DNA of 64,000 bases from Thermoplasmatota archaeon (lineage in GTDB: Archaea > Thermoplasmatota > Thermoplasmata > UBA10834): the NCBI GenBank assembly GCA_018818785.1, contig JAHIRF010000009.1:62001-126000 (forward strand), in the 5' to 3' direction. Numbering within the stretch: the first letter of the stretch is position 1; each line of letters begins with the position of its first letter. A model generated the notes under the pieces. It searched no databases and was not told where the DNA came from. It was given only the letters and a program-made list of their open reading frames with translations. Both the position numbers and the translations under genes were made by a program. Shown piece by piece: positions 18,376-34,638 of the stretch.

Positions 18376-18398
18376 CTCGGTCGAAGATTGTGACGGCC

Positions 18399-18460
18399 GT
18401 ACTAAATACATATCCAACTACTGCATGAAATGTGGATAGTCGGGACTATAATGCTAAATA
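18399..18460. promoter_or_regulatory. Divergent promoter region with two TATA-like boxes
   Basis: On the minus strand TATGTATTTAGTAC (about 18399-18412) precedes the radical SAM start by about 25-35 bases. On the plus strand TATAATGCTAAATATC (about 18448-18463) precedes the membrane protein start at 18493 by about 30. TATCCA and TGGATA form a spaced dyad between them, of uncertain meaning. Confidence 0.45.
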
Positions 18461-19256: not shown

Positions 19257-19616
19257 ATGCTCGCAGAGGACTATATGGGGGTCGCTGCATTCGCGGTCAT
19301 AGCGATTCTGTTTCCTGCCCTAGTCTTCCTCTTGTCGCGTTATCTCAGGCCAGACAAGAAGGATCCGCGAGGTGCCACTACATACGAATGCGGTGAGGTG
19401 CCGATTGGCCATGCACAGATACAGTTCCATTTCCAGTATTACATGTACGCCATCCTTTTCGTCGCCTTCGATCTGGTCACGGTATTCGTGCTCATGTGGG
19501 CCTTCGTTTTCGCCGACCTGAGTGATATGGCCAAGTTCTCGATGCTGGCTTTCCTAGGTATACTTCTCGTAGGTGTCGTTTACGCTCTCAAGAAGGAGGA
19601 GATTATCTGGATCTGA
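19257..19616 (+). CDS. fpoA: Complex I subunit A (FpoA/NuoA)
   Basis: A 119-residue membrane subunit of the Fpo/Nuo complex with three transmembrane helices. Family marks are the loop YLRPDKKDPRGATTYECGEVP between helices 1 and 2, with the conserved Cys, and HFQYYMYAILFVAFDLVTVF in helix 2. Subunit A helps form the quinone-chamber loop at the membrane/hydrophilic-arm junction. It is the first gene of a 12-gene operon with very short spacings. Confidence 0.95.
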   Translation: MLAEDYMGVAAFAVIAILFPALVFLLSRYLRPDKKDPRGATTYECGEVPIGHAQIQFHFQYYMYAILFVAFDLVTVFVLMWAFVFADLSDMAKFSMLAFLGILLVGVVYALKKEEIIWI

Positions 19617-19648
19617 ACAATGGGGACAGACCTTCCGTTGGCCAGGTC

Positions 19649-20185
19649 ATGATGTTTCGCTCGAAGGATTTTCTCAAATGGTCCGATGAGACGATCGAGG
19701 TCGTCCTGAAGAAGACACCCGTCGGTGGCGCCCTGGACCTATTGTTGAAGGATTTCTTCAACTGGGCCACAAGGAACTCCATCTATCCGCTTCATTTCGG
19801 TATCATGTGTTGTGCCTTGGAGATGGCCGTCGCTTCGGCACCGAGGTTCGACGCTCAGAGGATGGGGGTCATCTACAGATCGACACCCCGTCAGTGCGAT
19901 GTGCTCTTGGTCAATGGCCCCGTGAGCAAGAAGTTGAAGCCCGTCCTAAGGCGGCTATACGATCAGATGCCTGGGCCCAAGTGGGTCATCGCCATGGGTG
20001 AGTGCGCGATATCCGGCGGACCGTTCTGGGAGAGTTACAATGTAGTCCCTGGCGTGGACGCTTTCATCCCAGTCGACATTTACATACCCGGATGCCCGGC
20101 CAGGCCCGAGGCGTTGATCGACGGGTTCTTGAAATTGCAGAAGATGATCTTGGAGAACAAGCGCGGCCTTCTTACGGGCCGATGA
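19649..20185 (+). CDS. fpoB: Complex I subunit B (FpoB/NuoB), N2 cluster
   Basis: A 178-residue hydrophilic subunit that binds the terminal [4Fe-4S] cluster N2, which hands electrons to the lipid carrier. The ligands are visible: tandem Cys54-Cys55 in GIMCCALEM, Cys119 in AMGECAISGG and Cys149 in IYIPGCPARPE. The length and motif order are standard. It lies 32 bases after fpoA. Since an intact N2 site and the quinone-site residues of subunit D are kept, a membrane electron acceptor is expected. Confidence 0.96.
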   Translation: MMFRSKDFLKWSDETIEVVLKKTPVGGALDLLLKDFFNWATRNSIYPLHFGIMCCALEMAVASAPRFDAQRMGVIYRSTPRQCDVLLVNGPVSKKLKPVLRRLYDQMPGPKWVIAMGECAISGGPFWESYNVVPGVDAFIPVDIYIPGCPARPEALIDGFLKLQKMILENKRGLLTGR

Positions 20186-20210
20186 TATGGAAGACTACAG
20201 GGGATCATGT

Positions 20211-20720
20211 ATGAGGGAAGGGGGACGAAGCAACCAGGATCCTACGGGGAACATCGAGAGAGCCCCGTTGACGATAGGCGAGGACCCTGAGGAGCATGTG
20301 CTCCGGACGATCAATGACGAGTTCGGCAAGTCGGTCGAGGGATCTGAGAGGGTCAGGGCTGGACTCATACGCGCCAGGCTCGCTCGCGACAGTCTCTATG
20401 ATGCATGCAAACTCCTGAGAGACGACCTTGGATTCGAACACCTGTCGATGATATCCGCGGTCGACTACCCTGACAGGTTCGAGATAGTCTATCACATCAA
20501 TTCCTATCAATCGAATATCATGCTGGAGCTCATCGTGAAGCTACCCAAGGACGACCCGACGGTCGATTCCATATCATCGATATGGGGCGGGGCCAATTGG
20601 AACGAGAGGGAATCGTACGATCTGATGGGCATAGTGTTCAATGACCATCCGAAGCTGGAAAGGATACTGTTGCCGAAGGATACAATGTACCACCCACTGC
20701 GCAAGGATTTCAGGATGTGA
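20211..20720 (+). CDS. fpoC: Complex I subunit C (FpoC/NuoC, 30-kDa)
   Basis: A 169-residue hydrophilic subunit of the 30-kDa family. Recognised segments are HLSMISAVDYPDRFEIVYHI, IWGGANWNERESYDLMGIVF and the C-terminal HPLRKDFRM. It has no cofactor and stabilises the connecting module with subunit D, which follows separately rather than fused. An ATG at 20187 is an alternative start; 20211 was preferred because AGGGG lies seven bases upstream. The first 30 residues are not conserved. Confidence 0.93.
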   Translation: MREGGRSNQDPTGNIERAPLTIGEDPEEHVLRTINDEFGKSVEGSERVRAGLIRARLARDSLYDACKLLRDDLGFEHLSMISAVDYPDRFEIVYHINSYQSNIMLELIVKLPKDDPTVDSISSIWGGANWNERESYDLMGIVFNDHPKLERILLPKDTMYHPLRKDFRM

Positions 20721-20726
20721 TCATGG

Positions 20727-21809
20727 ATGGCCGAAATGTGGATCAACATGGGACCGCAGCACCCTATGACGCATGGTCTGTGGAACCTCCGCGTCAAGGT
20801 GGATGGAGAGACCATCGTAGACGCGGAACCCGAGGTCGGCTATCTCCACCGCGGCATCGAGAAGATCTGCGAGAACAGGACATATCCGCAGATAATCCCG
20901 CTCGCGGACAGGCTCTGCTATGGTTCCTCGCTCACCTGGAGTCACCTGTACTGTATGACAGTTGAGGACCTGATGGGGGTCGAGGTCCCTGAGAGGGCCG
21001 AGTACATCCGGGTGGTAACCCTTGAGATGCAGAGGCTCGCCTCCCATCTCATGTGGCTCGCGGCGTATGCCGTGGACCTCGGGATGATGGCCGGATTCAT
21101 CTACTCGATGAGGGACAGGGAGGTCCTCGTTGACCTTCTCCAGAGCCTTTCGGGTTCGCGGTTGACATATAACTATCCTCGTATAGGCGGTGTCGCGCAC
21201 GACCTCCCACCGAACTGGGACAGGGAGGCGTTGCGTGCATGCAATTACATCGAAACTCGTCTGAAGGAATACGAGGACCTGTACGAGGGTTCGAAGATAT
21301 TCATGATGAGGAACGTCGATGTCGGCCTCCTCACGAAGGAAGATGCTCTCGACCTAGGCGTCACTGGCCCACCTTTGAGGGCGAGCGGCGTGAGGTACGA
21401 TATGCGCAAGGACCGACCCTATTCCGTTTACTCTGATCTCGATTTCGAGGTCTGCTCGCGGCCTGAAGGTGACTGCTTCGCACGATATCGCGTAAGAATC
21501 GATGAGATGTGGGAGAGCTGTAAGATCATCAGACAGGCGATACAGCGCATGCCAAAAGGCAAATGGCGCACAGTCGCTCCGAGGAACGCACCCGTAGGCA
21601 CCGGCTTGGGCAGGGTCGAGGATCCCCGAGGCGAAGGGATGATGTATGTCGTCGGAGACGGTTCGGACAAGCCGTATCGCCTCAAGATCCGTAGCCCCAT
21701 CTTCATAACCGTATCCGCCGCCCCTAGTATGCTGGTAGGCTACAAGATGGCCGATGTCGTGGCCATAATGGGTGGATTGGACATGTGCATCGGGGAGTGT
21801 GACAGGTGA
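20727..21809 (+). CDS. fpoD: Complex I subunit D (FpoD/NuoD, 49-kDa)
   Basis: A 360-residue subunit related to the large subunit of [NiFe] hydrogenases, without the nickel-binding cysteines. With subunit B it forms the site where electrons reach the lipid carrier. Conserved features are GPQHPMTHG near the N-terminus (His12, His16), EVGYLHRGIEK and a Tyr (Tyr65 in DRLCYGSS) at the position of the quinone-binding Tyr. Others are YNYPRIGGVAHDLP, and C-terminal VSAAPSMLVGYKMADVVAIMGGLDMCIGECDR, which closes the fold. The retained His and Tyr argue for a quinone-type acceptor. It is followed four bases later by fpoH. Confidence 0.95.
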   Translation: MAEMWINMGPQHPMTHGLWNLRVKVDGETIVDAEPEVGYLHRGIEKICENRTYPQIIPLADRLCYGSSLTWSHLYCMTVEDLMGVEVPERAEYIRVVTLEMQRLASHLMWLAAYAVDLGMMAGFIYSMRDREVLVDLLQSLSGSRLTYNYPRIGGVAHDLPPNWDREALRACNYIETRLKEYEDLYEGSKIFMMRNVDVGLLTKEDALDLGVTGPPLRASGVRYDMRKDRPYSVYSDLDFEVCSRPEGDCFARYRVRIDEMWESCKIIRQAIQRMPKGKWRTVAPRNAPVGTGLGRVEDPRGEGMMYVVGDGSDKPYRLKIRSPIFITVSAAPSMLVGYKMADVVAIMGGLDMCIGECDR

Positions 21810-21813
21810 GACC

Positions 21814-22947
21814 ATGAACCTCTTCCAATTCTGCAATGGCATCATCGTATGGCTCGTGGAACTGGTCAACAACCTGTGGTACTGGCTCGGGGATGTGCTT
21901 CCGTGGTACTTCGGTGATTTCTTCACTGGCATCGGTGACTTCGCAGGATCCCACGGTCACATCGTGGTGATGACTATAGTGCTGGAATCGCTCATGGTCA
22001 TCATTGTCGCGCTCATCAACGTCCTCAACTTCATATGGTTGGATAGAAAGCTCAGCGGCCGGATATTCGACTTCTACGGTCCATACTATGTGGGTTACAG
22101 AATCGGTGGCTGGCTACAGAACCTCGCGGACGGCATGAAGCTTTTCGTCAAGGAGATAATCGTCCCCGCCAAGGCTGACAAGCTCGGGTTCCTTCTCGCT
22201 CCAGTCATATTCGTGGGCTCTTCCTTCCTCATCCTCGCGACGATACCATTGAGCCCCAACTTCGGCATAGCGACCAACGAATCCGGAGAGTTCGTGACTG
22301 CTGGAGTGCTCTTCGCGTTCGCTGCGTTCGCGATAGCGCCGTTCTCCATTCTGCTCGCAGGCTGGTCTTCCAACAACAAGTTCACGCTGATAGGTGGGAT
22401 GAGGTCCGCCGCTCAGATGATGAGCTATGAGATCCCACTATTGCTGACAGTCGCCAGCGTGGTCCTGCTCGCAGGAAGTTTCAGTTTCGTGGGGATAGTC
22501 GATGCGCAGCATGACATATGGTTCGCGATACCCCTGTTCATCGGCTTGGTCGTATTCCTCGTCTGCATAGCCGCTGAGGTGGAGGTGACCCCGTTCGATC
22601 TGCCCGAGGCCGAGGCAGAACTCGTCGAGGGATGGACCACAGAATACAGCGGGATGCGCTTCGGATTATTCATGATGACATCATATCTTCGCGGATACGC
22701 CGGTGGCGCGCTGGCTACTGCACTGTTTCTGGGAGGATGGCAGGGGCCATCCCTGATACCGGACGAGATATGGTTCCTGATCAAGGCTTACACCGTGTTC
22801 GTAGTCATCGAATGGATGAGATGGTCCCTTCCAAGGGTCCGTGTCGACCAGATATTGGAGCTCGGCTGGAAGCGACTCCTGCCACTGGCCGTCCTCAACC
22901 TGCTCATAGCAGCGACATTCAAGACGATGGGGTGGTTCAGTGGTTAG
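21814..22947 (+). CDS. fpoH: Complex I subunit H (FpoH/NuoH)
   Basis: A 377-residue membrane subunit with about eight to nine helices that contributes the lipid-carrier entry channel. Family marks are WLDRKLSGRI, YRIGGWLQNLADGMKLFVKE and EVEVTPFDLPEAEAELVEG. The start at 21814 gives a normal N-terminus and a four-base gap from fpoD; an in-frame ATG 42 bases upstream overlaps fpoD. The N-terminus is aromatic and longer than in bacterial NuoH. It overlaps the GTG start of fpoI. Confidence 0.94.
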   Translation: MNLFQFCNGIIVWLVELVNNLWYWLGDVLPWYFGDFFTGIGDFAGSHGHIVVMTIVLESLMVIIVALINVLNFIWLDRKLSGRIFDFYGPYYVGYRIGGWLQNLADGMKLFVKEIIVPAKADKLGFLLAPVIFVGSSFLILATIPLSPNFGIATNESGEFVTAGVLFAFAAFAIAPFSILLAGWSSNNKFTLIGGMRSAAQMMSYEIPLLLTVASVVLLAGSFSFVGIVDAQHDIWFAIPLFIGLVVFLVCIAAEVEVTPFDLPEAEAELVEGWTTEYSGMRFGLFMMTSYLRGYAGGALATALFLGGWQGPSLIPDEIWFLIKAYTVFVVIEWMRWSLPRVRVDQILELGWKRLLPLAVLNLLIAATFKTMGWFSG

Positions 22948-23851
22948 AGAGCGAGGCAAGGTGAGCTTCTTCGGATATGTCGTGAGGCCGATGATGCGCA
23001 CTGGCCGTCAGTTCGTGCGCTCGCTCATACTCGGCAGGCCCAATACCGTTCTCTATCCTCATGAGAAACTGGTGTTGCCTCAGGTATACAGAGGGAAACA
23101 CACTCTTGATTTCAAGAAGTGCATCGGTTGCGGAAACTGTCTCAATATCTGTCCAAACGAATGCATGTGGCTAGAGAAGATTGAAGATCCTGAACTCGGA
23201 AAGATCGAAAGGCCTGGTGTCGATCTAGGCAGATGCCTCTTCTGTGGCTTCTGTGCTGAAGTATGTCCTACGGTCGCGCTGCACTTGACGACCGAATTCG
23301 AGTTGGCCGACCGCGAGAGGGAGAGCTTCGTCCTCAGTCCGAAGGACATTCGCGACGATGCATTCGCTTCCACATTCAAGGAGGAGCGCCAGTCGCGCAA
23401 GCTGCCGTATCTTGATTTGTCTAAGTGCACCAGCTGCGAGAAGTGCGCGGAAGAATGCCCCGAGATGTGCATAGCCATGATGCCAATCGAGAAGGTCGAC
23501 AAGAAGAAGCCCGAGATCAACCTCGCCAAATGCACATCATGTGAGAAGTGTATCACCGCGTGTCCTGAGAATGCGCTCGTGTCGACCGAGGTATACGAAT
23601 CATATTTCGAGACGCCGGAACCGAGATTGCTGCTGTCCAAGTGCACGGGTTGTTCCGCATGTGCGCGCGCGTGCCCCACAGATGCCATTTACATGATGGA
23701 GATGCCTGGGAGCGAGAAGACTCTCAAGGATGGCAAGAAAGGGAAGCCTAAGAAACGGGCGGTATTCGTGTTCGAGAAATGCGTCGGCTGTGGTCGATGT
23801 TTCAAAGCATGTAAGTTCGGAGCGATCGAGATGCCGGGGGTGAAGAAGTGA
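22940..23851 (+). CDS. fpoI: Complex I subunit I (FpoI/NuoI) extended to six [4Fe-4S] motifs
   Basis: A 303-residue Fe-S subunit, about twice the usual length. Residues 1-120 are a normal NuoI with two ferredoxin motifs (Cys61/64/67/71 and 99/102/105/109). The extra C-terminal half adds four more: CTSCEKCAEECP (163-174), CTSCEKCITACP (198-209), CTGCSACARACP (235-246) and CVGCGRCFKACK (281-292). A lysine-rich linker (about 260-273) precedes the last. The operon lacks the NADH (NuoEFG) and F420 (FpoF) input subunits. The extension may therefore receive electrons directly from ferredoxin, which is inference. It starts at GTG, overlapping fpoH, and its end overlaps fpoJ1. Confidence 0.93.
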   Translation: MVRERGKVSFFGYVVRPMMRTGRQFVRSLILGRPNTVLYPHEKLVLPQVYRGKHTLDFKKCIGCGNCLNICPNECMWLEKIEDPELGKIERPGVDLGRCLFCGFCAEVCPTVALHLTTEFELADRERESFVLSPKDIRDDAFASTFKEERQSRKLPYLDLSKCTSCEKCAEECPEMCIAMMPIEKVDKKKPEINLAKCTSCEKCITACPENALVSTEVYESYFETPEPRLLLSKCTGCSACARACPTDAIYMMEMPGSEKTLKDGKKGKPKKRAVFVFEKCVGCGRCFKACKFGAIEMPGVKK

Positions 23852-24108
23852 CCTGGGAGCTGTTCATATTCCTGTTCCTTGCCGCGTCAGCGTTGATATC
23901 TGCTCTTCTTGTGGTGAGAGCCAGGGAGATAATCCATGGAGTAGTGGCACTGGCCACCTGCTTCATTGCCGTGGCTTGTATGTATATCATGCTTAATGCC
24001 GAATTCGTCGCGATCGTTCAGATACTCGTATATGTAGGCGCAATCGTAGTCGTCATCCTGTTCGGAATAATGCTGACCAAGCGCGAGATAATGGAGAGTG
24101 GTGACTGA
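23848..24108 (+). CDS. fpoJ: Complex I subunit J, N-terminal half (FpoJ1)
   Basis: An 86-residue membrane protein matching the first three helices of NuoJ, including the conserved VEFxxxxQILVYVGAIVVVILFGIML-type helix 3 that takes part in conformational coupling. NuoJ is split into two genes here, as in some archaeal Fpo operons. The GTG start overlaps the fpoI stop, and the stop overlaps the next ATG, so translation is coupled. The split is clean, with a stop and start at the junction, so it does not look like a damaging frameshift. Confidence 0.92.
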   Translation: MTWELFIFLFLAASALISALLVVRAREIIHGVVALATCFIAVACMYIMLNAEFVAIVQILVYVGAIVVVILFGIMLTKREIMESGD

Positions 24109-24353
24109 TGAAGCTCAACACGATCATCAAGGGCTCGTCTCTGCTCCTGCTCGCGTTGCTCTTCGTGCTGGTCGTGACAGGCGTGTCGTGGCCCGAGGGT
24201 GATATGGATGCTGTGACGAACGAGGACGTCGCGTGGTTGATGTTCGGGACGGACAACTCGAGCGGGTACGCCCTCATCGTCCTGATGATTGGCGTGCTCC
24301 TATTCGTCGCGTTGCTGGGCGGGATCTTTCTTGCAAAGGAGGAGAAGGAATGA
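24108..24353 (+). CDS. fpoJ: Complex I subunit J, C-terminal half (FpoJ2)
   Basis: An 81-residue protein with two predicted helices (about 10-27 and 54-75) separated by an exterior acidic loop. This is the layout of the end of NuoJ. It begins one base before the fpoJ1 stop codon ends and overlaps the fpoK start by four bases. Sequence identity in this half is weak across the family, so the call rests mainly on gene order between J1 and K. Confidence 0.85.
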   Translation: MKLNTIIKGSSLLLLALLFVLVVTGVSWPEGDMDAVTNEDVAWLMFGTDNSSGYALIVLMIGVLLFVALLGGIFLAKEEKE

Positions 24354-24670
24354 TCCCAATCGAGTACTGGCTCATATTCAGCTCGCTCCTGTTCGTCATT
24401 GGTGCGTATGGCGTCGTGTCTCGGAAGAACGCGATCGTCGTACTCATGTGCATAGAGATAATGCTCAACGCGGCAAACATTAACCTCGTGATGTTCAGCA
24501 GTTATCATAGCGTCCTGCACACGGTCCCAGACGCGACCGGTCAGGTGTTCGCGCTGTTCTCAATAGCCATAGCGGCCGCCGAGGTCGCGGTGGGTCTGGC
24601 TATCATACTATCGGTTTACAGAAGGTATCAGACGATCGATGTCGACAAGATAAACATCCTGAGGTGGTAG
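24350..24670 (+). CDS. fpoK: Complex I subunit K (FpoK/NuoK)
   Basis: A 106-residue membrane subunit with three helices. It shows the conserved membrane glutamates of the proton path: Glu in VLMCIEIMLNAANINLV and Glu in IAIAAAEVAVGLAI. The ATG follows GGAGAAGG and overlaps the fpoJ2 stop. It ends in TAG two bases before the fpoL GTG. The length is normal for the family. Confidence 0.95.
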   Translation: MIPIEYWLIFSSLLFVIGAYGVVSRKNAIVVLMCIEIMLNAANINLVMFSSYHSVLHTVPDATGQVFALFSIAIAAAEVAVGLAIILSVYRRYQTIDVDKINILRW

Positions 24671-24671
24671 A

Positions 24672-26630
24672 GTGCTAGAGTATGCGTGGCTGATCCCAGT
24701 CTTCCCGTTCGTGGCGTTCCTACTCATAGCGCTGTTGCCGAAACGCACGCTCTGGTGGGAATCGGGTGCGGTCTACGCCATCGCAGGCACACTGTGCTCG
24801 TTGGTGCTCTCCATGCTGGTCGTTTGGAGCGTCCTGAACGGTGAGACCCTCACGACGGATACGCCCAAGTTCAAGTGGCTGGAAGTGGGGGACTTCTCTC
24901 TTGAGTTCGGCGTGTGGATAGACCAGTTGACCGCGCTCATGCTAGTGGTCGTTTCCATAGTCGGCACCCTTGTCGTGGTCTACTCCGGCGGTTACATGCG
25001 CGAAGAAGGGGAGGGCAGGAGACGCTACTACGCCGAGATAACCCTCTTCATATCGGTGATGTTCGGTCTGGTGATATCCGACAACTATCTCCAGATGTTC
25101 ATATTCTGGGAGCTTGTCGGTCTTTGCTCATACCTGCTCATAGGTTTCTGGTACGAGAAACCGTCCGCAGCCAGTGCTGCCAAGCGGGCTTTCATAGTCA
25201 CCCGCGTGGGAGATATAATGTTCATGGCGGGCATCATAATCCTGTTCAAGTATGTGGGGAGCCTCGACTTCGAGACGCTCTTCTCAGAATCCGCTGCCGT
25301 CGCGGTACCTACTGACATGATGATACTCGCCACTGCGCTGATATTCGGTGGAGCCATAGGAAAGAGCGCACAATTCCCTCTGCACGAATGGTTGCCGGAT
25401 GCTATGGAGGGCCCGACAACGGTATCGGCCCTCATTCATGCGGCCACGATGGTCAAGGCAGGGGTGTATCTCGTGGCGAGATCGTATCCGCTGCTCATAC
25501 ATGCCCCTGAGAGCCTGCTGTTCGTAGCAGTCATCGGCGGCGTGACCGCGATACTGGCCGCGACAGTCGCTTTGGCGGCGAACGATATCAAACGCGTTCT
25601 GGCATACAGCACCATCAGCCAGCTCGGATACATGATCCTCGGGCTGGGAGCCGGCGGTTATCTGGTGATATATGCGAATTCCCCTGGAGGATATGCGGCT
25701 GCGACATTCCACCTGATGAACCATGCGTTCTTCAAAGCCCTCCTGTTCCTTTGCGCCGGAAGCGTGATACACGCGATAGGCACGAACGACATGCGACTCA
25801 TGGGTGGTTTAGGCAAGAAGATGAAGATCACATCGCTCACGATGCTGATCGGAGCGTTAGCCATATCGGGCATACCGCCGTTCTCTGGTTTCTGGAGCAA
25901 GGACGAGGTGCTGGCTGCCGTATGGCACGCCGGGGAGTTCGATTCCGTCTTCTTCCTGCTTTGGCTGATGGGCATAGTCACCGCGTTCATGACTGCCTTC
26001 TACATGTTCCGAATGTGGTTCATGACTTTCGCGGGGGAGCCTCGGTCCGAATACCACGCGCACGAATCGCCCAGGATAATGACTGTTCCGTTGATGATAC
26101 TTGCAGGCTTGGCCATGACATCCGGATTCGTTCTGTTCATCGGTGACGGATTCAAGGGATTCATGGAATCGTCGATCGAAGGACTGTTGCACGGTGCGGA
26201 GCACGAGTCACTGGTCGACATCGCGGCCGAGATATTCACCGATCCGCTGACCTATGTATCACTTACCCTCGCTGTCGTTGGGATAATGCTTGCGAGGAAG
26301 ATCTACCTCACTCCGGGATTCGACCGGAGCATGTTCTCCCGCGGATTCAATGGCAAGCTTCAGCGCGCTCTCGAGAACAGATGGTACATCAGCAAGTTCT
26401 ACGACGACTTCGCTGTGAAAGTGGTCTATGGCCTGTCGTTGATCGCAGACAAGTTCGACAGATATGTTATAGATGGCCTGGTGAACGGATTCGCGTTCCT
26501 GGGTGGCAATACCGGAAACTTCATCAGACGGCTGCAGGACGGCAACGTGCAGCGCTACGCGAGTCTCATATTGGTTGGTATCTGCCTGCTGTTGATACTC
26601 GTTCTATACATATTGCCATGGGGTGGGTGA
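24672..26630 (+). CDS. fpoL: Complex I subunit L (FpoL/NuoL), antiporter-like
   Basis: A 652-residue antiporter-like subunit, one of the three ion-pumping subunits. Conserved stretches are FWELVGLCSYLLIGFWYEKP, the lysine and histidine helices AQFPLHEWLPDAMEGPTTVSALIHAATMVKAGVYL-type (about residues 235-270), and LNDIKRVLAYST-like ANDIKRVLAYSTISQLGYM. The long C-terminal amphipathic helix and last transmembrane helix are present (about 540-652). It starts at GTG. Adjacent subunits M and N complete the set. Confidence 0.95.
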   Translation: MLEYAWLIPVFPFVAFLLIALLPKRTLWWESGAVYAIAGTLCSLVLSMLVVWSVLNGETLTTDTPKFKWLEVGDFSLEFGVWIDQLTALMLVVVSIVGTLVVVYSGGYMREEGEGRRRYYAEITLFISVMFGLVISDNYLQMFIFWELVGLCSYLLIGFWYEKPSAASAAKRAFIVTRVGDIMFMAGIIILFKYVGSLDFETLFSESAAVAVPTDMMILATALIFGGAIGKSAQFPLHEWLPDAMEGPTTVSALIHAATMVKAGVYLVARSYPLLIHAPESLLFVAVIGGVTAILAATVALAANDIKRVLAYSTISQLGYMILGLGAGGYLVIYANSPGGYAAATFHLMNHAFFKALLFLCAGSVIHAIGTNDMRLMGGLGKKMKITSLTMLIGALAISGIPPFSGFWSKDEVLAAVWHAGEFDSVFFLLWLMGIVTAFMTAFYMFRMWFMTFAGEPRSEYHAHESPRIMTVPLMILAGLAMTSGFVLFIGDGFKGFMESSIEGLLHGAEHESLVDIAAEIFTDPLTYVSLTLAVVGIMLARKIYLTPGFDRSMFSRGFNGKLQRALENRWYISKFYDDFAVKVVYGLSLIADKFDRYVIDGLVNGFAFLGGNTGNFIRRLQDGNVQRYASLILVGICLLLILVLYILPWGG

Positions 26631-26636
26631 TTGACG

Positions 26637-28142
26637 ATGCTCGAAGGTGTGCCTGTGCTTTCTCTGACAATACTCATTCCTCTCATCGGAGCGTTCATCA
26701 CGTTCTCGCTGGGCAAGTATGGGAAGTATGCGAAGTACATCGCCCTCGCCTTCTCGGTCGGGGCGCTGCTACTGTCGTTGTTGATCGCATATGAGTTCGC
26801 CACCGATCCCTCGCCGTCAGCGACTGGCTATCATTCCGATTATCAGTTCTACGAGGAACATGCATGGATCAGCACGCTCGGGATCAACTATATCGTGGGT
26901 CTGGATGGCATCAGCCTTCCGCTGTTCGTTCTAACGACCCTTCTTTGCACGCTATCCATCATATTCTCCTGGGATACTGAGAAGCGCCCGAAGGAATACT
27001 TCGGTCTCATGCTCATTCTTGAGGTCGGAGTCCTTGGCGTTTTCGTTTCCTTGGACTACTTCATGTTCTACGTGTTCTGGGAGGTCGTTCTGATACCGAT
27101 GTACTTCATGATCGGTATCTGGGGCGGTCCGAGGAAGGACTATGCTGCGATCAAGTTCTTCATCTACACGCATGTCGCGAGCCTGGCATTGCTCATCGCC
27201 ATCATGGCGATGTATTTTGAGGCTGGTCTGCAGACCTTCAGCATGGAAGCGATAGCGGGCGTAAGCGTGGACTTTGCCAAGGGTGTGCAGGTGGCCATCT
27301 TCGCTGCGATGTTCTTCGGGTTCGGTGTGAAGCTCCCAATGGTTCCGTTCCACACATGGCTTCCTGACGCACATGTCGAAGCGCCAACTGCGGGGAGCGT
27401 GCTGCTAGCCGGCTTGTTGCTCAAGATGGGTGGATACGGGATCATCAGGGTCGCGATGACCTCCCTGCCTCAAGGCGCTGATAGCCTTTCCGTGCTCATG
27501 GCCGTCATGGGTGTCGTGAGCATCATCTACGGTGCAATATTGTGTCTGGCACAGACCGATTTGAAGAAGATGGTCGCATATTCGTCGATAAGCCATATGG
27601 GCTTCGTTTTGCTGGGCTTCGCCACTCTGGGTGAGGTCGGCATCGTCGCGGGAGTCTTCCAGATGTTCGCCCACGGTCTCGTAACTGCTGTGTTGTTCAT
27701 GATGTGCGGCGTTGTGCAGCACAAATGTGGGACGCGATTGATTCCGCAACTGGGCGGACTGGCCAAGAGGATGCCGATCGCGGCGGCGATGATTACCATC
27801 GGATTCCTCGCATCACTTGGCTTGCCTGGTCTAGTCAGCTTTGCAGCGGAGTTCATGGTGTTATACGCGACTTTCGCGAAATGGTCGATGTGGGTGTTCG
27901 TTCCGATAATAGCTGTCGCAATCACGGCTGCCTACTATCTGTGGGCGTTGCAGAAGTCCATGTTCGGGCCGATGACAGACAAGATCGACACATCCCACCT
28001 GAAAGATGTCACATGGTACGAAGGAGTACCCGTCGCCATACTGATAGTCCTGATCGCGGTCTTCGGGGTCTTCCCGTCATTGATATTCTCGAAGATCACG
28101 CCCGCTGTAGAGATCCTTCTAAGGCTGTATGGAGGTGGATGA
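26637..28142 (+). CDS. fpoM: Complex I subunit M (FpoM/NuoM), antiporter-like
   Basis: An antiporter-like subunit of about 501 residues. Typical segments are FYVFWEVVLIPMYFMIGIWGG with the conserved Glu, VPFHTWLPDAHVEAPTAGSV, LLKMGGYGIIRV, and LAQTDLKKMVAYSSISHMGF. The ATG at 26637 lies six bases after GGGTGGGTGA. A TTG at 26631 in the same frame is an alternative start. The end overlaps the ribosome site of fpoN. Confidence 0.95.
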   Translation: MLEGVPVLSLTILIPLIGAFITFSLGKYGKYAKYIALAFSVGALLLSLLIAYEFATDPSPSATGYHSDYQFYEEHAWISTLGINYIVGLDGISLPLFVLTTLLCTLSIIFSWDTEKRPKEYFGLMLILEVGVLGVFVSLDYFMFYVFWEVVLIPMYFMIGIWGGPRKDYAAIKFFIYTHVASLALLIAIMAMYFEAGLQTFSMEAIAGVSVDFAKGVQVAIFAAMFFGFGVKLPMVPFHTWLPDAHVEAPTAGSVLLAGLLLKMGGYGIIRVAMTSLPQGADSLSVLMAVMGVVSIIYGAILCLAQTDLKKMVAYSSISHMGFVLLGFATLGEVGIVAGVFQMFAHGLVTAVLFMMCGVVQHKCGTRLIPQLGGLAKRMPIAAAMITIGFLASLGLPGLVSFAAEFMVLYATFAKWSMWVFVPIIAVAITAAYYLWALQKSMFGPMTDKIDTSHLKDVTWYEGVPVAILIVLIAVFGVFPSLIFSKITPAVEILLRLYGGG

Positions 28143-28143
28143 T

Positions 28144-29631
28144 TTGGAGATACTGAATACCCTGGAGCCGTTCCTTCCGCAGCTCCTGCTGATACTATTT
28201 GCGACCCTGATGCCCGGGCTTGATTACCTGTTCAAGGACAAGAGGATCGTGGCTTTCGCGTCACTGATACCGCTGATCGCCATCATGGGTGCGGTCGTGA
28301 CTTGGCTCTTCACGGACTCTTGGACACCCCCGGGCAGCAGCATCGCCCTCGTGGAGATCAATCTGTTCTCCGGGCTGTTCATGCTGGTCTTCCTGGCCGT
28401 CGGCATCATTGTCGTACTCACCTCGATGGATTTCGTTAGGACTGATAAGAACCAGGGAGAATACTATGCCTTGATACTCCTTGCGATCGCAGGTATGACT
28501 CTGGTGGCCAGCGCAGCCGACCTGTTCGTCATATTCGTGGGCTTGGAGATCGCTGGGATATCCTCGTTCGCCCTGTCTGGATTCAGAAAGCACGAGAAAC
28601 GTTCTGCCGAGGCCGCCACGAAATATTTCATAATCGGTGGTTTCTCGTCCGCACTCACGCTGTTCGCGATATCTCTGTTCTATGGCATCGCCGGCACGAC
28701 GAACATATCCGCTATGGGTGCCGCGATGGATGCATCCTTCACCTCTTTCGAAGGTTCTGAATCGTTCGCATTGCTCGCCACTGTGCTCGTCCTGGCAGGC
28801 TTCGGTTTCAAGGTGGCGCTCGTGCCCTTCCACATGTGGGCGCCCGATGTGTACGAGGGTGCGCCGACACCGATATCCGGTCTGCTCGCAGCCGCATCCA
28901 AGAAGATGGGTTTCGCCGCGTTCTTCAAGGTGTTCCTGATCGGCTTGATAGTCACGAAATCAGATTGGGACATCGCGATTGCGATACTGGCTATCATAAC
29001 GATGACCGTGGGCAACCTGATCGCTGTGTCGCAGACGAACATCAAGCGCATGCTAGCATATTCGTCGGTCGCTCAGGCAGGATACATCCTCATCGCGCTC
29101 CCGGTCGGCACGCAGTATGCTGTCGCGGGTGCGTTATTCCATATCCTGACGCATGCGTTCATGAAATCCGGGGCGTTCATGGTCGTTGCCGGCATGGCGT
29201 CTTGTGCGATAGGGGAGAAATTGGACGATTTCAAAGGCCTAGGCAAACGCTCCCCGTTCCTCGCGATCTCCATGACGTTGTTCCTATTCTCTCTGGCGGG
29301 CATACCACCTCTCGCGGGATTCGCCAGTAAGTTCGTGCTGTTCTCGTCCGCCGTGTACGGCTCGAGTGACCCCGGACCGAGCTGGTTGATCTGGCTTGCG
29401 GTCGCTGCGGTCCTGAACAGCGCGTTGTCCCTGTACTATTATGCGCGCGTGATCAAGTACATGTACATGGAGAAGGGGTCGGAGGCGAAGGTCAAGGTGC
29501 CGAGATCCACTACGGCTGCAATCGCTATATCGCTCGCCATGACTATCGTGCTAGGCGTATACTTCGACGCGGTTATGGATCTCTGCCTACGGGCAGCAGA
29601 GGCATTCAGCAACCTGCCGATAGGGTTCTGA
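28144..29631 (+). CDS. fpoN: Complex I subunit N (FpoN/NuoN), antiporter-like
   Basis: A third antiporter-like subunit of about 495 residues and the last gene of the operon. Family marks are DLFVIFVGLEIAGISSFALSG, VALVPFHMWAPDVYEGAPTP, SQTNIKRMLAYSSVAQAGY and LAGIPPLAGFASKF. A TTG at 28144 was preferred because GGAGGT lies seven bases upstream, inside the fpoM end. An ATG at 28129 in the same frame lacks a ribosome site. No fpoO or fpoF follows; the next gene is on the other strand. Confidence 0.94.
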   Translation: MEILNTLEPFLPQLLLILFATLMPGLDYLFKDKRIVAFASLIPLIAIMGAVVTWLFTDSWTPPGSSIALVEINLFSGLFMLVFLAVGIIVVLTSMDFVRTDKNQGEYYALILLAIAGMTLVASAADLFVIFVGLEIAGISSFALSGFRKHEKRSAEAATKYFIIGGFSSALTLFAISLFYGIAGTTNISAMGAAMDASFTSFEGSESFALLATVLVLAGFGFKVALVPFHMWAPDVYEGAPTPISGLLAAASKKMGFAAFFKVFLIGLIVTKSDWDIAIAILAIITMTVGNLIAVSQTNIKRMLAYSSVAQAGYILIALPVGTQYAVAGALFHILTHAFMKSGAFMVVAGMASCAIGEKLDDFKGLGKRSPFLAISMTLFLFSLAGIPPLAGFASKFVLFSSAVYGSSDPGPSWLIWLAVAAVLNSALSLYYYARVIKYMYMEKGSEAKVKVPRSTTAAIAISLAMTIVLGVYFDAVMDLCLRAAEAFSNLPIGF

Positions 29632-29651: not shown

Positions 29652-30584
29652 TCACAGGAATCCTGCAGCTATTATGCCAGCAGAGAGCAACAGCCCTGTG
29701 ATGAGGTGTATCTGTATTGTCATCGCTTGTGCAGGGACCAGTTCTCTCACGGCCTCACACTTCTCACGCACAATCTTGATTGCCTTCAACGCAATGGGCA
29801 AGGGTGCAAGCGCGATTAGCGCGTACAGCGGGTACACGTTCAGCAATAGCAATGCCACGATCATAGCAAAGGCTGCGACCATGATCCCGACGTACCATGA
29901 CGCTGCCTTGGCCAGCCCCATCCTGACGACCCAATGGTTCTTACCTGCGGTTCCATCTGATTCTCTGTCCGGGAACTGATTGATGAACAGCACTAGCCCG
30001 ATGAATAGTCCTACGGGGACTCCTGCAAGGAAGACCGGGACGCTGAATGTCTGGGTCTGGACCAGATAGGCGCCCTCCACTATCAATGGACCGAAACCCA
30101 ATCCTAGCGCGACCTCCCCTACGCCTTTCGCGGCAAGCCCCGACCTCGGTATCGTGTAGAAATATCCGAATCCTATGCCCACGATTCCAAGCGGAATAAC
30201 GAGCCATGTGGTAGCATAAGCGAGATAGAATCCGATGGCCGCGCATCCGCCGAACATAAGCATCGAGGCGATGTACACCTCTTTCGGGGTGAGCACGCCT
30301 TCTACAAGAAACGGGCTTCCTCCGTTGAACGGGGTCCTGTTCTTATTGTATATGTCCGTCCCGCTCTTGTAGTCAAAGTAATCATTGATGACGTTGGTTG
30401 CTGCGTGAGCGAGAATGACACCTAAGGTTACGAGGCCGAAGAGTATGGCGTCAAAACTCTCTTCGGATTGCCATGCGATGGCCGTTCCAAGTATCGCAGG
30501 TATTATCGCGGCCGTAAAGAACGGCACTCGCAGTTCCGCGATCCATATCTTGAGTTTGGATGGTTTCCCGCTGGATTCGTTCAT
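29652..30584 (-). CDS. menA: MenA/UbiA-family prenyltransferase
   Basis: A 310-residue membrane prenyltransferase with about nine helices. The first aspartate motif is NVINDYFDYKSGTD, the second NQFPDRESD, and a MenA-like NRTPFNGGSPFLVEGVLTP loop lies between. MenA attaches a polyprenyl chain to 1,4-dihydroxy-2-naphthoate; the family also includes other aromatic acceptors. It is convergent with the complex I operon (20-base gap) and divergent from a polyprenyl synthase. A TATA-like TTATTTATAT lies about 32-41 bases upstream of the ATG. Acceptor identity is not determined by the sequence; menaquinone-like or methanophenazine-like rings are both possible. Confidence 0.9.
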   Translation of the reverse strand: MNESSGKPSKLKIWIAELRVPFFTAAIIPAILGTAIAWQSEESFDAILFGLVTLGVILAHAATNVINDYFDYKSGTDIYNKNRTPFNGGSPFLVEGVLTPKEVYIASMLMFGGCAAIGFYLAYATTWLVIPLGIVGIGFGYFYTIPRSGLAAKGVGEVALGLGFGPLIVEGAYLVQTQTFSVPVFLAGVPVGLFIGLVLFINQFPDRESDGTAGKNHWVVRMGLAKAASWYVGIMVAAFAMIVALLLLNVYPLYALIALAPLPIALKAIKIVREKCEAVRELVPAQAMTIQIHLITGLLLSAGIIAAGFL

Positions 30585-30615
30585 GAGATTTCGATATGCA
30601 ACTGGTCAAACTTGG

Positions 30616-30625
30616 ATATAAATAA
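30616..30625 (-). promoter_or_regulatory. Predicted TATA box of the MenA/UbiA-like gene
   Basis: TTATTTATAT on the minus strand lies about 32-41 bases before the ATG. It implies a very short leader. It is in the divergent region shared with the polyprenyl synthase gene. Confidence 0.55.
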
Positions 30626-30705
30626 TGCGGGTAATCCAACGCCTTCTGGCTATCATCTGCTAACAAGAGCCAGCAACCACTAGGGTTAAGTAGAGATTGG
30701 GGCAT

Positions 30706-31689
30706 ATGCGAATATTGATGAGTCCATCCCCTTGGGATTTTGGCATCTCTAAGGAGCTTAGCTTAGTCGATGAGAAGCTCCGCCAGATGGTCGCTTCTGG
30801 CGAGAAGAGTCTCACCGAGGCCGCGTTGCACGTGATTGATGCCGGTGGAAAGCGCCTCCGGCCAACCGTGACGATACTGTCATTCAAGAGCCTAGGCGGA
30901 GAGGATGTTCAGAAGATTGCCGATATCGCAGCTGCCTTCGAGCTCATACACTCTGCGACGCTAATCCATGACGATATTAATGATGGCGGGCTTGCTAGGC
31001 GAGGTCGCGAGACGGTCTACAAGAAGTACGGGTTACATAACGCGATCGTTACAGGGGATTTCCTTTTCGTGAAAGCCTTCTCTCTAGGAGGGCTGTTCGA
31101 CAAGAATGTTGTCCAGACAACTGCGGATGCGTGTGCGAAACTCGCCGAAGGCGAGATACTTCAGAATAGATATAGGCACACTCAGAACATGACCGTGGAC
31201 ATCTACCTGAAGGTGATGGAGCGCAAGACTGCGGAACCCTTGAGGGCGGGCGCGATGGTCGGGGCCTACCTGGCCGGTGGGACTCTCGAAGACATCAACA
31301 ATCTGGCGAGCTATGGCCTCAATATGGGTATCGCATTCCAGATCGCTGATGATATCCTGGATTTCGTTGGTGATGAGAAGCGTACTGGCAAACCCGTCGG
31401 GATGGATCTTAAAGAGGGGTATCTGACCCTGCCATCACTATTGGCCATGAAGGATTCGGAGACTGCTCGCAAAGAGATACTCGAACTGGTCAAGATGGAT
31501 GACCCGTCTGCCGAGAAGGTCAGACATTGTATCGATCTGGTCGTGGAATCCGGGGCGATGGATAAGGCGAAGGGTATGGGCGAATATTATGCCCTTGAGG
31601 CGTTGCAGCACCTGGGTTCCCTGCCCGACACCAAATACAGCAGATCCCTGAGAGAGCTCGTTAATAGTGTCTTGAACAGAGATTCGTAG
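30706..31689 (+). CDS. Trans-polyprenyl diphosphate synthase (long-chain type)
   Basis: A 327-residue all-trans prenyl diphosphate synthase. The first Asp-rich motif is LIHDDIND, the second FQIADDILDFVGDE, with GGKRLRPTVTIL near the N-terminus. The fifth residue before the first motif is Ala (in SATLIHDD). That small residue permits chains longer than C15-C20 and is common in hexaprenyl- to octaprenyl-type enzymes. The product length is inferred, not shown. ATG codons at 30706 and 30718 and a TTG at 30697 are all possible starts. The gene is followed 11 bases later by a UbiE-like methyltransferase. Confidence 0.92.
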   Translation: MRILMSPSPWDFGISKELSLVDEKLRQMVASGEKSLTEAALHVIDAGGKRLRPTVTILSFKSLGGEDVQKIADIAAAFELIHSATLIHDDINDGGLARRGRETVYKKYGLHNAIVTGDFLFVKAFSLGGLFDKNVVQTTADACAKLAEGEILQNRYRHTQNMTVDIYLKVMERKTAEPLRAGAMVGAYLAGGTLEDINNLASYGLNMGIAFQIADDILDFVGDEKRTGKPVGMDLKEGYLTLPSLLAMKDSETARKEILELVKMDDPSAEKVRHCIDLVVESGAMDKAKGMGEYYALEALQHLGSLPDTKYSRSLRELVNSVLNRDS

Positions 31690-31700
31690 GTGACTCGATT

Positions 31701-32429
31701 ATGATGGATGCTAATGGTATGTCCGGGAGACATTGGACGGAGGTCGTTGAGGCGCTCGAGGAGATTGCCCCAGACTATGATCGAGTGAACCAGTTGATCA
31801 CATTCGGACTCGCTGATAGATGGCGCCGAGAAGTGGCCGCGTACGCAGAGCCCGATGATGTTGTCCTAGAGGTAGGCTCTGGACCGGGCTCTTTCGCCAG
31901 ACATCTAATCTCCAAATCGATATATTGCATCGAACCATCCGGCGAACTCGCGAACTATTCGAAGGAGCTGCTGGATCAGAATCGCATACAATTGGTTAGG
32001 GCGGTGGGCGAGAAGATACCGATGGCGGATCAGAGCGTTGATAAGGTGTTCTGCGTATTCTCATTCAGAGATTTCTTCGACAAGGGTGAGGGGATCTCCG
32101 AGATCCACAGGGTTCTGAAAGCAGGAGGCGAGGTTCGCATAGTGGATGTCGCGAAGCCGCCACCAGGGCCGCTCGCGAAGTTGCTTGATATGCATGTCAA
32201 GCACATCGTCCCGAGGCTCGCCAGGATAGCTGTGAATCCTGCGTCATACCATCGGCTGAAGCGAGACCCTTACATGACTTTCGTGGACACTTACAAGGCA
32301 TTCGGATTCACATCGATCTATGAGAACCTCCTATCCCAACAGGGTTTCTCAGAGGTCAAGACTGAGTTCCTCAAGATGAAGGGTGCCACGATGACCAGGG
32401 GGAAGAAACCTTGGACGTCGACGTCCTGA
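31701..32429 (+). CDS. UbiE/MenG-like SAM methyltransferase
   Basis: A 242-residue class I methyltransferase resembling UbiE/MenG, which C-methylates the ring of quinones. The N-terminal stretch IAPDYDRVNQLITFGLADRW is close to the family signature YDxxNxxxSxGxxxxW. The SAM-binding motif is VVLEVGSGPGSFARHL, and RVLKAGGEVRIVDVAKPP follows. It overlaps the GGR-family gene by 19 bases. Neighbouring prenyl synthase and MenA-like genes support ring methylation of a prenylated electron carrier. The exact substrate is unknown. Confidence 0.85.
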   Translation: MMDANGMSGRHWTEVVEALEEIAPDYDRVNQLITFGLADRWRREVAAYAEPDDVVLEVGSGPGSFARHLISKSIYCIEPSGELANYSKELLDQNRIQLVRAVGEKIPMADQSVDKVFCVFSFRDFFDKGEGISEIHRVLKAGGEVRIVDVAKPPPGPLAKLLDMHVKHIVPRLARIAVNPASYHRLKRDPYMTFVDTYKAFGFTSIYENLLSQQGFSEVKTEFLKMKGATMTRGKKPWTSTS

Positions 32430-33487
32430 TAGTCGGTGCAGGTCCAGCAGGGAGCACGACCGCGAGGTTCTGTGCGTCCGAGGGCATCGACGTTTTAATG
32501 ATCGATAGGCGGCGGGAGATAGGCTATCCTGTGCAATGTGGAGAGCTTCTTCCAGACACTGATGAGATGTACACGATATTCCCCGAAGGTCAGGATCTCA
32601 AGGAACTCTTCACACTACCATCGCACCTGATCCAAAGAACGTGCGACAATATTGACCTCATATCACCTGGTGGAAAGACATACAGATGCGAATTCAAGTC
32701 ACATGTCCTCGATAGGCGGTTCTTCGACAAGCACCTGGTCGATTTGGCCATCAACGCAGGATCTCGACTTAGCATGGATTCGTCCCTGCTGTCCCTGGAG
32801 AACGGCATCGCACGGACGACCCTGGGGAACATCAAGGCGAAGGTGATAGTTGGCGCGGATGGTCCCAACTCGAAGACTATGAGACAGACGGGCATGGACG
32901 ATTCCCGCATGAACTATCCTGCGGTGACCTGTCAGGCGAAGGGTTCGTTCGAGCCGGTTGTCAAGATGTACTTCGGTAGTGTCGCTCCGGGTGGGTATGG
33001 ATGGATAATCCCGAAGGCCAGTGGTGCGAATATCGGGATCGGGTTCAACCCCCGCATCTTCAAGGGCCGCCCGCGGACGGTCTTCGACAAATTCATGGCA
33101 ACTATGGATTGCGAATATGGGGACCTCACGATGGGTCTGGTCCCTATGTCCGGACCTGCCTCATCCACTGTACGAGAGAATGTATTGCTGGTTGGCGACG
33201 CTGCGGGGCAGGTGATGGCGACGAACGGCGGGGGCATTCCGACGGCGATGATAGCTGGAAGGATTGCCGGCAAGACGATCGCTGAACACTTGGCCGGGAA
33301 ATGCTCTCTTTCAGTATATGAGAAGCGATGGCGAGAAGTGATGGAGAAACCATTGCGGACCGCTCTGTCCACTAGGCGATTGGCAGACATATTCTTCTTG
33401 AACGACCGGCTCCTTGGGATGTCCATGCGTATATTGGGACGGAGAGGTCTCGACCGCGCGATTCGATGCAAGAGGATATTATTCTAG
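32411..33487 (+). CDS. Geranylgeranyl reductase family flavoprotein
   Basis: A 358-residue FAD-dependent GGR-family protein. It begins with the FAD motif VDVLIVGAGPAGSTTARF, then PVQCGE near residue 44, and ends the FAD domain with NVLLVGDAAGQVMATNGGGI. The family saturates isoprenoid double bonds, either in archaeal lipid chains or in the side chain of respiratory carriers. Its place after UbiE-like and prenyl-synthase genes favours the second, but lipid reduction cannot be excluded. The TTG start overlaps the previous gene by 19 bases and follows AGGGGGAAG. Confidence 0.88.
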   Translation: MDVDVLIVGAGPAGSTTARFCASEGIDVLMIDRRREIGYPVQCGELLPDTDEMYTIFPEGQDLKELFTLPSHLIQRTCDNIDLISPGGKTYRCEFKSHVLDRRFFDKHLVDLAINAGSRLSMDSSLLSLENGIARTTLGNIKAKVIVGADGPNSKTMRQTGMDDSRMNYPAVTCQAKGSFEPVVKMYFGSVAPGGYGWIIPKASGANIGIGFNPRIFKGRPRTVFDKFMATMDCEYGDLTMGLVPMSGPASSTVRENVLLVGDAAGQVMATNGGGIPTAMIAGRIAGKTIAEHLAGKCSLSVYEKRWREVMEKPLRTALSTRRLADIFFLNDRLLGMSMRILGRRGLDRAIRCKRILF

Positions 33488-33510: not shown

Positions 33511-34002
33511 TCAACGCTTCGTCCGTGGTTTCCTCTTCCTTGCAGATTTGGTGCCGCTTCCGCATATGTCGCAGACACTGACATTCGATTCGAAGATCTT
33601 CCCGCAACCGATGCATCTTGCTTCCCAATGCCAAACGCTTGTGATGCCTCTCTGGTCGAGTCCTCGGCAAGGCACTCCGAGCTCGGCCGCAGTGTTCTGG
33701 ATGGAGTAATCATCGGTAACCAATTGATAGCCAGTCTCGTGGGCCAGGGCCAACACCTCGATGTCCGTGTCAGAAAGCCTGGAAATATCGCCGGTCACCC
33801 TGGCTGCCAGCTGCACCTTTTCGATGTGCTTCTCTTCCGGGGAGTATACCCTAATTTTTGATGCCAGAAGGAATTCCAGGCGTGGACCCATTCCTTCCCT
33901 CTCCAACTCTCTGACGACTCCTGGGGAGATGATCAGTTCATATCCATCGGGAAGGTCTTTGCCGTAGTATAGTGCAGATGTATCCAGTACAAGACCCTTC
34001 AT
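33511..34002 (-). CDS. nob1: rRNA maturation endonuclease Nob1 (PIN domain + zinc ribbon)
   Basis: A 163-residue protein with an N-terminal PIN nuclease domain (VLDTSALYYGKDL, LSDTDIEVLALAHE, LVTDDYSIQNTA supply the acidic residues) and a C-terminal zinc ribbon (CIGCGKIF and CDICGS). Nob1 cuts the 3' end of 16S rRNA during small-subunit assembly. The basic tail (KSARKRKPRTKR) suits RNA binding. It is the last gene of a three-gene group with the ThiI-like and E1-like genes, 6 bases after the ThiI-like stop. Confidence 0.93.
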   Translation of the reverse strand: MKGLVLDTSALYYGKDLPDGYELIISPGVVRELEREGMGPRLEFLLASKIRVYSPEEKHIEKVQLAARVTGDISRLSDTDIEVLALAHETGYQLVTDDYSIQNTAAELGVPCRGLDQRGITSVWHWEARCIGCGKIFESNVSVCDICGSGTKSARKRKPRTKR

Positions 34003-34008
34003 TACATC

Positions 34009-34638
34009 TCACTCCAATATCCCATATGCGCCCCTTGCCTCCAGCTCCACCAGCCGCTCGATGTCCACCTTTCCTTCTTCTTCGAGGGTGGGCTTCAGCT
34101 TGCTATATGTGGATGGCTTGTTCGGAGCGACCGCACAACATGATCCCGGAAGGATTGATATCTCATAAGTCCCGATCTCCTTGGCGATCCGCTCGATCTC
34201 GATTTTATCATAACCTATCAGTGGTCTTAGAATCGGCAGTGAAGTCGCGTTCTCCTCAACGAGGATGTTTGCTAGGGTCTGGGATGCCACCTGTCCCATG
34301 GACTCTCCCGTTATGATGAAACCCGCATCGTGCTCCGCCGCCAACCTCTCCGCAACCCTCAGCATTGTCCGTCTGCAGAGGACGCACTGGATATTGCTCC
34401 TGCAGTTCCTCGCGATCTCCGACTGCGTTGGACCGTGAGGAACCATCAACTTGGCATGATTCTTCCCTGTGACCTTGTCCAGCTGTATCATCAGCGCCTT
34501 GGCCTTGTCTATCTCCGCATCGCTTGTGAACGGTCTGTTGTCGAAATGCACGAGGACGAGGTCCATCCCCTGTCCTGCTATCAGGTATGCCGCTACGGGA
34601 GAATCTATGCCTCCTGACAGCAGAACGATGCCTTTCAA
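34009..34638 (-). CDS. ThiI-like PP-loop sulfurtransferase lacking THUMP domain
   Basis: A 209-residue adenylating sulfur-transfer protein matching the catalytic half of ThiI, which makes 4-thiouridine in tRNA. The PP-loop is LLSGGIDSPVAAYL (residues 6-19). CVLCRRTMLR (Cys85, Cys88) and GSCC (Cys167-168) match cysteines used by archaeal ThiI lacking rhodanese domains, where a Fe-S cluster is proposed. The N-terminal ferredoxin-like and THUMP RNA-binding domains of full ThiI are absent, so the protein would need a partner to hold tRNA or has another substrate. It follows an E1-like activating enzyme gene. Confidence 0.85.
   Translation of the reverse strand: MKGIVLLSGGIDSPVAAYLIAGQGMDLVLVHFDNRPFTSDAEIDKAKALMIQLDKVTGKNHAKLMVPHGPTQSEIARNCRSNIQCVLCRRTMLRVAERLAAEHDAGFIITGESMGQVASQTLANILVEENATSLPILRPLIGYDKIEIERIAKEIGTYEISILPGSCCAVAPNKPSTYSKLKPTLEEEGKVDIERLVELEARGAYGILE

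Follow-up and report, generated by a model that had tools for sequence, protein, structure and literature searches.

Putative late steps of redox-lipid synthesis encoded beside an Fpo-like complex I in a Thermoplasmatota archaeon

Where do the electrons go that pass through an Fpo-like complex I without FpoF? Whether such complexes use a membrane carrier has been in question since 2014, and the matter is raised by a locus of an uncultivated, apparently non-methanogenic Thermoplasmatota archaeon (GenBank assembly GCA_018818785.1, contig JAHIRF010000009.1, positions 62,001 to 126,000; these 64,000 nucleotides are hereafter the window), in which genes for a UbiA-family prenyltransferase (UbiA), a trans-polyprenyl diphosphate synthase (PPS), a UbiE-like methyltransferase (UbiE) and a geranylgeranyl-reductase-family flavoprotein (GGR) lie directly behind an Fpo-like operon. 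We consider that these four genes probably encode the late steps of a dedicated pathway to a prenylated aromatic redox lipid that accepts the electrons of Fpo. The cluster is a compact, expressible gene set (UbiA, PPS, UbiE, GGR and a TIGR04190 protein), and should such a carrier arise independently of both known ring pathways, "no quinone" calls from genomes would be wrong for many anaerobic lineages, including Thorarchaeota. The genome (G000; 1.97 Mb, 94.5% complete) has unclassified Thermoplasmata metagenome-assembled genomes, e.g., UBA9653, as its nearest named relatives. The features of the window on which the argument draws are as follows:

29652-30584, minus strand: MenA/UBIAD1-type UbiA-family prenyltransferase, 310 aa, assigned by the motifs NDYFDYKSGTD and NQFPDRESDGTAGK, Pfam, NCBIfam, a PDB profile and a tree.
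30697-31689, plus strand: long-chain-type PPS, 330 aa, assigned by Pfam, NCBIfam and the Ala at position -5 of DDIND.
31701-32429, plus strand: UbiE/MenG-like C-methyltransferase, 242 aa, assigned by Pfam, NCBIfam and alignment to E. coli UbiE.
32411-33487, plus strand: GGR flavoprotein, 358 aa, with GAGPAG, PGGYGWIIP and GDAAG motifs and a match to GG-red-SF.
19257-29631, plus strand: Fpo-like complex I operon FpoABCDHIJ1J2KLMN, with FpoD at 20727-21809 and fpoN at 28129-29631.
16669-18417, minus strand: B12-binding radical S-adenosylmethionine (SAM) protein of the TIGR04190 (Ta0216) family, 582 aa, with the cluster motif CTHNCINC; a candidate partner in carrier biosynthesis.
14589-15746, minus strand: HdrD-like CCG/4Fe-4S protein, 385 aa; a candidate electron-transfer partner of Fpo or of the carrier.
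30585-30696, no strand assigned: divergent intergenic region of UbiA and PPS, 112 bp, in which ATATAAAT, some 33 nt away from the start of UbiA, looks TATA-like on inspection by eye alone.

The original prediction had placed four biosynthetic families directly behind the Fpo-like operon, and all four open reading frames were recovered between the same outer coordinates, with Pfam (UbiA, 116 bits; polyprenyl_synt, 229; Ubie_methyltran, 74; GGR_cat, 38) and NCBIfam in agreement. PPS, UbiE and GGR are tightly packed, with a gap of 11 bp between the first two and an overlap of 19 bp between the last two. UbiA is convergent with fpoN (20 bp gap) and, being on the minus strand and divergent from PPS across 112 bp, does not belong to one operon with PPS-UbiE-GGR.

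The arrangement is not due to chance, since all congeners and the sister genera carry the block too, with protein identities of roughly 50-80%. Genera g1 and g3 have the full order Fpo-UbiA-PPS-UbiE-GGR (in one genome, G016, no GGR was recognised), genus g2 and family f2 have Fpo-PPS-(UbiE)-GGR, and the methanogen genomes G024 and G054 have Fpo-PPS-GGR; synteny of Fpo-PPS-(UbiE)-GGR thus extends across the order and into two methanogen families. Of the 21 genomes of the order, 20 encode some UbiA that matches that of the window, and several g2 genomes carry a more distant type; since UbiA in g2 is located elsewhere or is more distant, it has been relocated or exchanged, with PPS-UbiE-GGR remaining next to Fpo. 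On the other flank of Fpo, the HdrD-like gene, a MobB-like gene and the TIGR04190 gene are kept. No mcrA was found in this genome or in the other 20 of the order, while families f6 and f20 gave clear matches.

The original prediction would have fallen if UbiA had proved to be a digeranylgeranylglyceryl phosphate (DGGGP) synthase. The genome encodes two UbiA proteins, the second of which lies beside the geranylgeranylglyceryl phosphate (GGGP) synthase (contig C5, 33.6 kb), and the DGGGP synthase profile gives 266 bits for this second protein and 25 bits for the window UbiA. The best MenA profile in NCBIfam scores 158 bits on the window UbiA; the PRK06080 subgroup profiles range from 76 to 158 bits against cut-offs of 264-555, and despite these sub-cut-off scores, MenA is by far the best-matching kind. 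A profile of the window UbiA family searched against the PDB retrieved UBIAD1 (8djk) with an E-value of 3e-32 and DGGGP synthase with 2e-7. Over its entire length the window UbiA can be aligned to E. coli MenA (27% identity), and it has a MenA-like second motif, whereas E. coli UbiA and the genome's DGGGP synthase align with it in short pieces only, and in the tree the latter two fall across a branch of moderate support (82/66) from the window protein. On these results we reject a DGGGP synthase at this position in favour of a MenA/UBIAD1-type enzyme, as had been predicted.

The remaining enzymes were similarly delineated. The PPS carries the predicted Ala five residues before DDIND (HSATLIHDDIND), the same residue as in E. 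coli IspB, and on the strength of this small residue we read it as long-chain-type, again in line with the original prediction. The genome's second PPS has Phe at this position, as expected of a short-chain geranylgeranyl diphosphate synthase, and E. coli IspA has Tyr; across phyla, 34 of 40 PPS linked to the same UbiA subfamily have Ala. The UbiE-like protein exceeds the cut-off of PF01209 (74.3 over 20.1 bits) and is 28% identical to E. coli UbiE. The GGR exceeds that of GG-red-SF (TIGR02032; 212 over 158.8 bits) and is one of three GGRs over the family cut-off in the genome, being 24-32% identical to the others. By these comparisons, the UbiA, PPS and GGR of the block are dedicated paralogues, distinct from the genome's other copies.

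In the proposed pathway, PPS would make a long all-trans chain, which the MenA-type UbiA would join to an aromatic ring; the UbiE-like enzyme would methylate the ring, GGR would saturate part of the chain, and the TIGR04190 protein, for which gene context predicts a ring-modifying role, might contribute, e.g., a C-methylation. The Fpo-like complex would then reduce the carrier at a site with the His and Tyr of its D subunit, and re-oxidation of the carrier would fall to a partner, for instance the HdrD-like protein encoded nearby. What the sequences show is the family-level identity of the genes, their paralogy and their conserved linkage to Fpo, whereas the substrate, the order of steps, the redox role and the partner are inferred. 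Two residues lining the complex I quinone pocket, the His of HPxxHG and a Tyr, are retained in FpoD (HPMTHG at residue 12 and DRLCY at residue 61, aligned with complex I chains). No FpoF, FpoO or NuoEFG is encoded within the Fpo operon, a search limited to 19257-29631, with fpoF elsewhere in the genome not searched for. FpoI (22940-23851) is a protein of 303 aa with six 4Fe-4S motifs in place of the usual two, which suggests an enlarged ferredoxin-type electron input. The HdrD-like protein matches a TfrB C-terminal-like profile with 255 bits.

MqnA/D (PF02621) and MenD (PF16582) were undetected in this genome and in the other 20 genomes of the order, with controls as expected; both known menaquinone ring pathways appear absent. 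The original prediction held that the four enzymes would suffice to finish a quinone or a methanophenazine-like molecule, and had named a failure to detect a ring pathway or carrier among the results that would refute it; in the searches for MqnA/D and MenD no ring pathway was detected. The late-step families are present, but finishing a quinone depends on a ring from outside the detected pathways, which is either imported or made by an undescribed route. A similar picture emerged from 50 genomes, bacterial and archaeal and of unstated completeness, that carry the same UbiA subfamily: MqnA/D was detected in one, weakly (G075, PF02621, 42 bits), and MenD in none. This scarcity is a co-occurrence rather than a functional test, and such lineages may often lack menaquinone. 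No paper linking Thermoplasmatota with futalosine was found in the open-licence literature, to which all our literature searches refer.

Relatives of the window UbiA at 38-69% identity were retrieved by alignment search from named genomes of many phyla. Within 4 kb of UbiA outside the order, PPS occurs at 28 of 67 loci, GGR at 14, UbiE at four and an HdrD-like gene at seven, all of these seven in Thorarchaeota (L080, L096, L100, L103, L109, L111 and L123); the HdrD-like proteins beside UbiA-PPS-GGR in Thorarchaeota are 28-31% identical to that of the window. At three Omnitrophota loci (L118, L127, L133), an Rnf/Nqr-type operon with an NqrF-like subunit is followed by UbiA and PPS. At L118, where RnfC-type (278 bits) and NqrF (301 bits) both exceed their cut-offs, few or no bases separate the operon from UbiA and PPS, and MqnA/D and MenD were not found in the L118 and L133 genomes, the two tested of the three. 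In Bathyarchaeota (L138), PPS-UbiA lies near fpo genes. The UbiA neighbours in LCP-89 (families f36 and f47), considered as ring enzymes, turned out to be TldD/PmbA proteases; at L079 (5011-7815), L093 and L120, in LCP-89 and related bacteria, UbiA is immediately followed by a pair of TldD/PmbA-type protease genes.

The TIGR04190 protein of the window is a full member of its family (638 bits against a cut-off of 500), to which no function is assigned and for which no paper naming TIGR04190 or Ta0216 was found; the link to quinone genes is proposed here. Operons joining the same UbiA to a TIGR04190 homologue that is 44-50% identical to the window protein occur in Aerophobetes (L092, L112), Phycisphaerae (L091) and a further bacterium (L115), and in the methanogen genome G054 the TIGR04190 gene adjoins PPS-GGR. 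At L091 (6478-7407), L092 and L112, a second radical SAM gene resembling TIGR03961 (PTO1314; 143 bits, cut-off 306) lies between UbiA and TIGR04190. In five genomes of the Thermoplasmatales genus g34, TIGR04190 stands between MqnA/E and MqnC. A role as a general menaquinone gene was considered and set aside, since most Thermoplasmatales carry TIGR04190 without Mqn neighbours.

Several observations weigh against a dedicated carrier pathway. No lipid data were found for the lineage, and no ring-forming enzyme was identified by searches targeted at MqnA/D and MenD, other ring chemistries not having been searched. The window UbiA scores 98.7 bits on the MenA equivalog TIGR00751, below the cut-off of 102.15, and the UbiE-like protein scores 99.3 bits on TIGR01934, under the cut-off of 158.35. 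The set is not fixed: UbiA runs in a different direction from PPS-UbiE-GGR, it is located elsewhere in g2 and f2, and UbiE is absent from the cluster in G020, G024 and G054. The link between TIGR04190 and ring synthesis is weakened in that, of 30 loci in the order Thermoplasmatales, Mqn genes adjoin TIGR04190 only in the five g34 genomes, which makes this adjacency probably one event. Finally, the genomes are mostly metagenome-assembled, and the absences therefore rest on numbers and not on any single genome.

If the carrier pathway is accepted, two sources of the ring have to be weighed. We tentatively propose that the ring of a respiratory quinone-type lipid is formed or modified by an undescribed route, of which the MenA-like UbiA subfamily and, in part, TIGR04190 would be markers. 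This route might operate in anaerobes without a detected menaquinone pathway, both archaea (Thermoplasmata, Thorarchaeota, Bathyarchaeota) and bacteria (Omnitrophota, Aerophobetes, Phycisphaerae and others), and its product might serve ion-pumping complexes, FpoF-less Fpo among them, as the carrier; we hold this to be possible, though still doubtful. The other source is scavenging, in which 1,4-dihydroxy-2-naphthoate (DHNA) or a short quinone is taken from neighbours and its side chain added and edited to give ordinary menaquinone. This is a sub-case of the carrier pathway that differs only in the origin of the ring. The presence of MenA-type and UbiE-type enzymes with MqnA/D and MenD undetected speaks for it, and some Gram-positive bacteria are known to have menA-only genomes and to be cross-fed with DHNA. 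However, scavenging would have to hold for bacteria and archaea of many phyla, and the TIGR04190 gene in operon with UbiA, joined at three bacterial loci by a second radical SAM gene, suggests endogenous ring chemistry; we regard it as an unlikely source, albeit one to be taken seriously.

It is distinctly improbable, in our view, that the Fpo-like complex passes electrons directly to the HdrD-like subunit with no lipid carrier, the four genes making an unrelated prenylated compound such as a pigment, an antioxidant or a reduced polyprenol. For Methanomassiliicoccales, a model has Fpo feeding HdrD directly (PMC7824343), and the HdrD-like gene conserved beside Fpo here would suit it. The linkage of Fpo with PPS and GGR, in contrast, is kept over order-level distances, the same UbiA is linked elsewhere to Rnf/Nqr-type, Hdr-like and Fpo genes, and FpoD retains its quinone-pocket residues, all of which argue against such direct transfer.

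That this carrier is methanophenazine itself has very little probability. The PPS reaches 124 bits with the profile for geranylfarnesyl synthase of Methanosarcina, whose cut-off is 600, and this is much less than its 238 bits on the HepT-type profile; the order has no mcrA. The related Fpo complex of Methanosarcina uses methanophenazine, and both a C25 chain and its saturation by a GGR-type enzyme would be in keeping with this carrier, but the methanophenazine ring carries no C-methyl group, so that UbiE would be left unexplained. We know of no established ring-forming genes for methanophenazine.

Hardly any weight attaches, lastly, to a second archaeal-type membrane-lipid set, in which UbiA-PPS-GGR would act in a DGGGP-like manner and TIGR04190 on tetraethers, like the ring synthases of glycerol dialkyl glycerol tetraethers (GDGTs): UbiA, PPS and GGR are indeed enzyme classes used for archaeol, and most Thermoplasmatales, which make ringed GDGTs, carry TIGR04190, but the genome encodes a separate DGGGP synthase next to GGGP synthase, as well as a PPS of the Phe type and further GGRs, and TIGR04190 stands among MqnA/E/C genes in one genus. 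A GGGP synthase survey of bacterial UbiA carriers has already largely refuted it, since in 33 of 47 bacteria holding the same UbiA no GGGP synthase exceeded the family cut-off; these 33 include the genomes of Aerophobetes and Phycisphaerae with the UbiA-TIGR04190 operon, which makes an archaeal-lipid role unlikely there. Bacterial DGGGP synthases, moreover, are described as close to those of TACK archaea (PMC7852524).

Further features of the window were noted apart from this argument. Formate dehydrogenase alpha, an MvhD-like subunit and two HdrA-like proteins are encoded consecutively at 2356-8620, possibly a formate-linked HdrA complex in an mcrA-less organism. A match to "methanogenesis marker 11" (214 bits, cut-off 256) at 11480-12433 adjoins UppS, in a genome without mcrA. 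PIN-domain and ThiI-like genes (33511-34638), though functionally unrelated, still follow GGR across the order and in the methanogen genome G024.

The idea of a lipid carrier for Fpo is not new. In Methanomassiliicoccales, Borrel et al. 2014 (PMC4153887, Table 6) listed ispA, ubiA (as DHNA octaprenyltransferase) and ubiE under "liposoluble electron transporter synthesis" and proposed that this transporter, of undetermined identity, accepts Fpo electrons. Both systems share an Fpo without FpoF or FpoO, together with ispA, a MenA-type ubiA and ubiE for a lipid carrier, and our analysis adds PPS and GGR next to Fpo in G024 and G054. In Methanomassiliicoccales, the ubiA and ubiE accessions lie far from that of ispA, suggesting that they belong to a different locus, and the table does not include GGR; here, the four genes form one block in an order without mcrA, and UbiA is about 34% identical to that of G024. 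What is new is that the four genes occur jointly in a lineage lacking mcrA and with MqnA/D and MenD undetected; the possible TIGR04190 link, the broad spread of the UbiA subfamily and the undetected ring pathways have no earlier report that we found.

Among characterised enzymes, MenA and UBIAD1, prenyltransferases for DHNA or menaquinone-4, are the best NCBIfam and PDB matches of the window UbiA, which differs in its sub-equivalog scores and in that the tested ring-forming genes were undetected. The late steps of the futalosine and Men pathways, i.e., prenylation, methylation and chain saturation, have counterparts here, while MqnA/D and MenD do not. The methanophenazine system of Methanosarcina, in which an Fpo-type complex feeds a prenylated membrane carrier with an Hdr-type acceptor, resembles the arrangement predicted here from the genes, and differs from it in that Mcr is lacking here and a methyltransferase is present.

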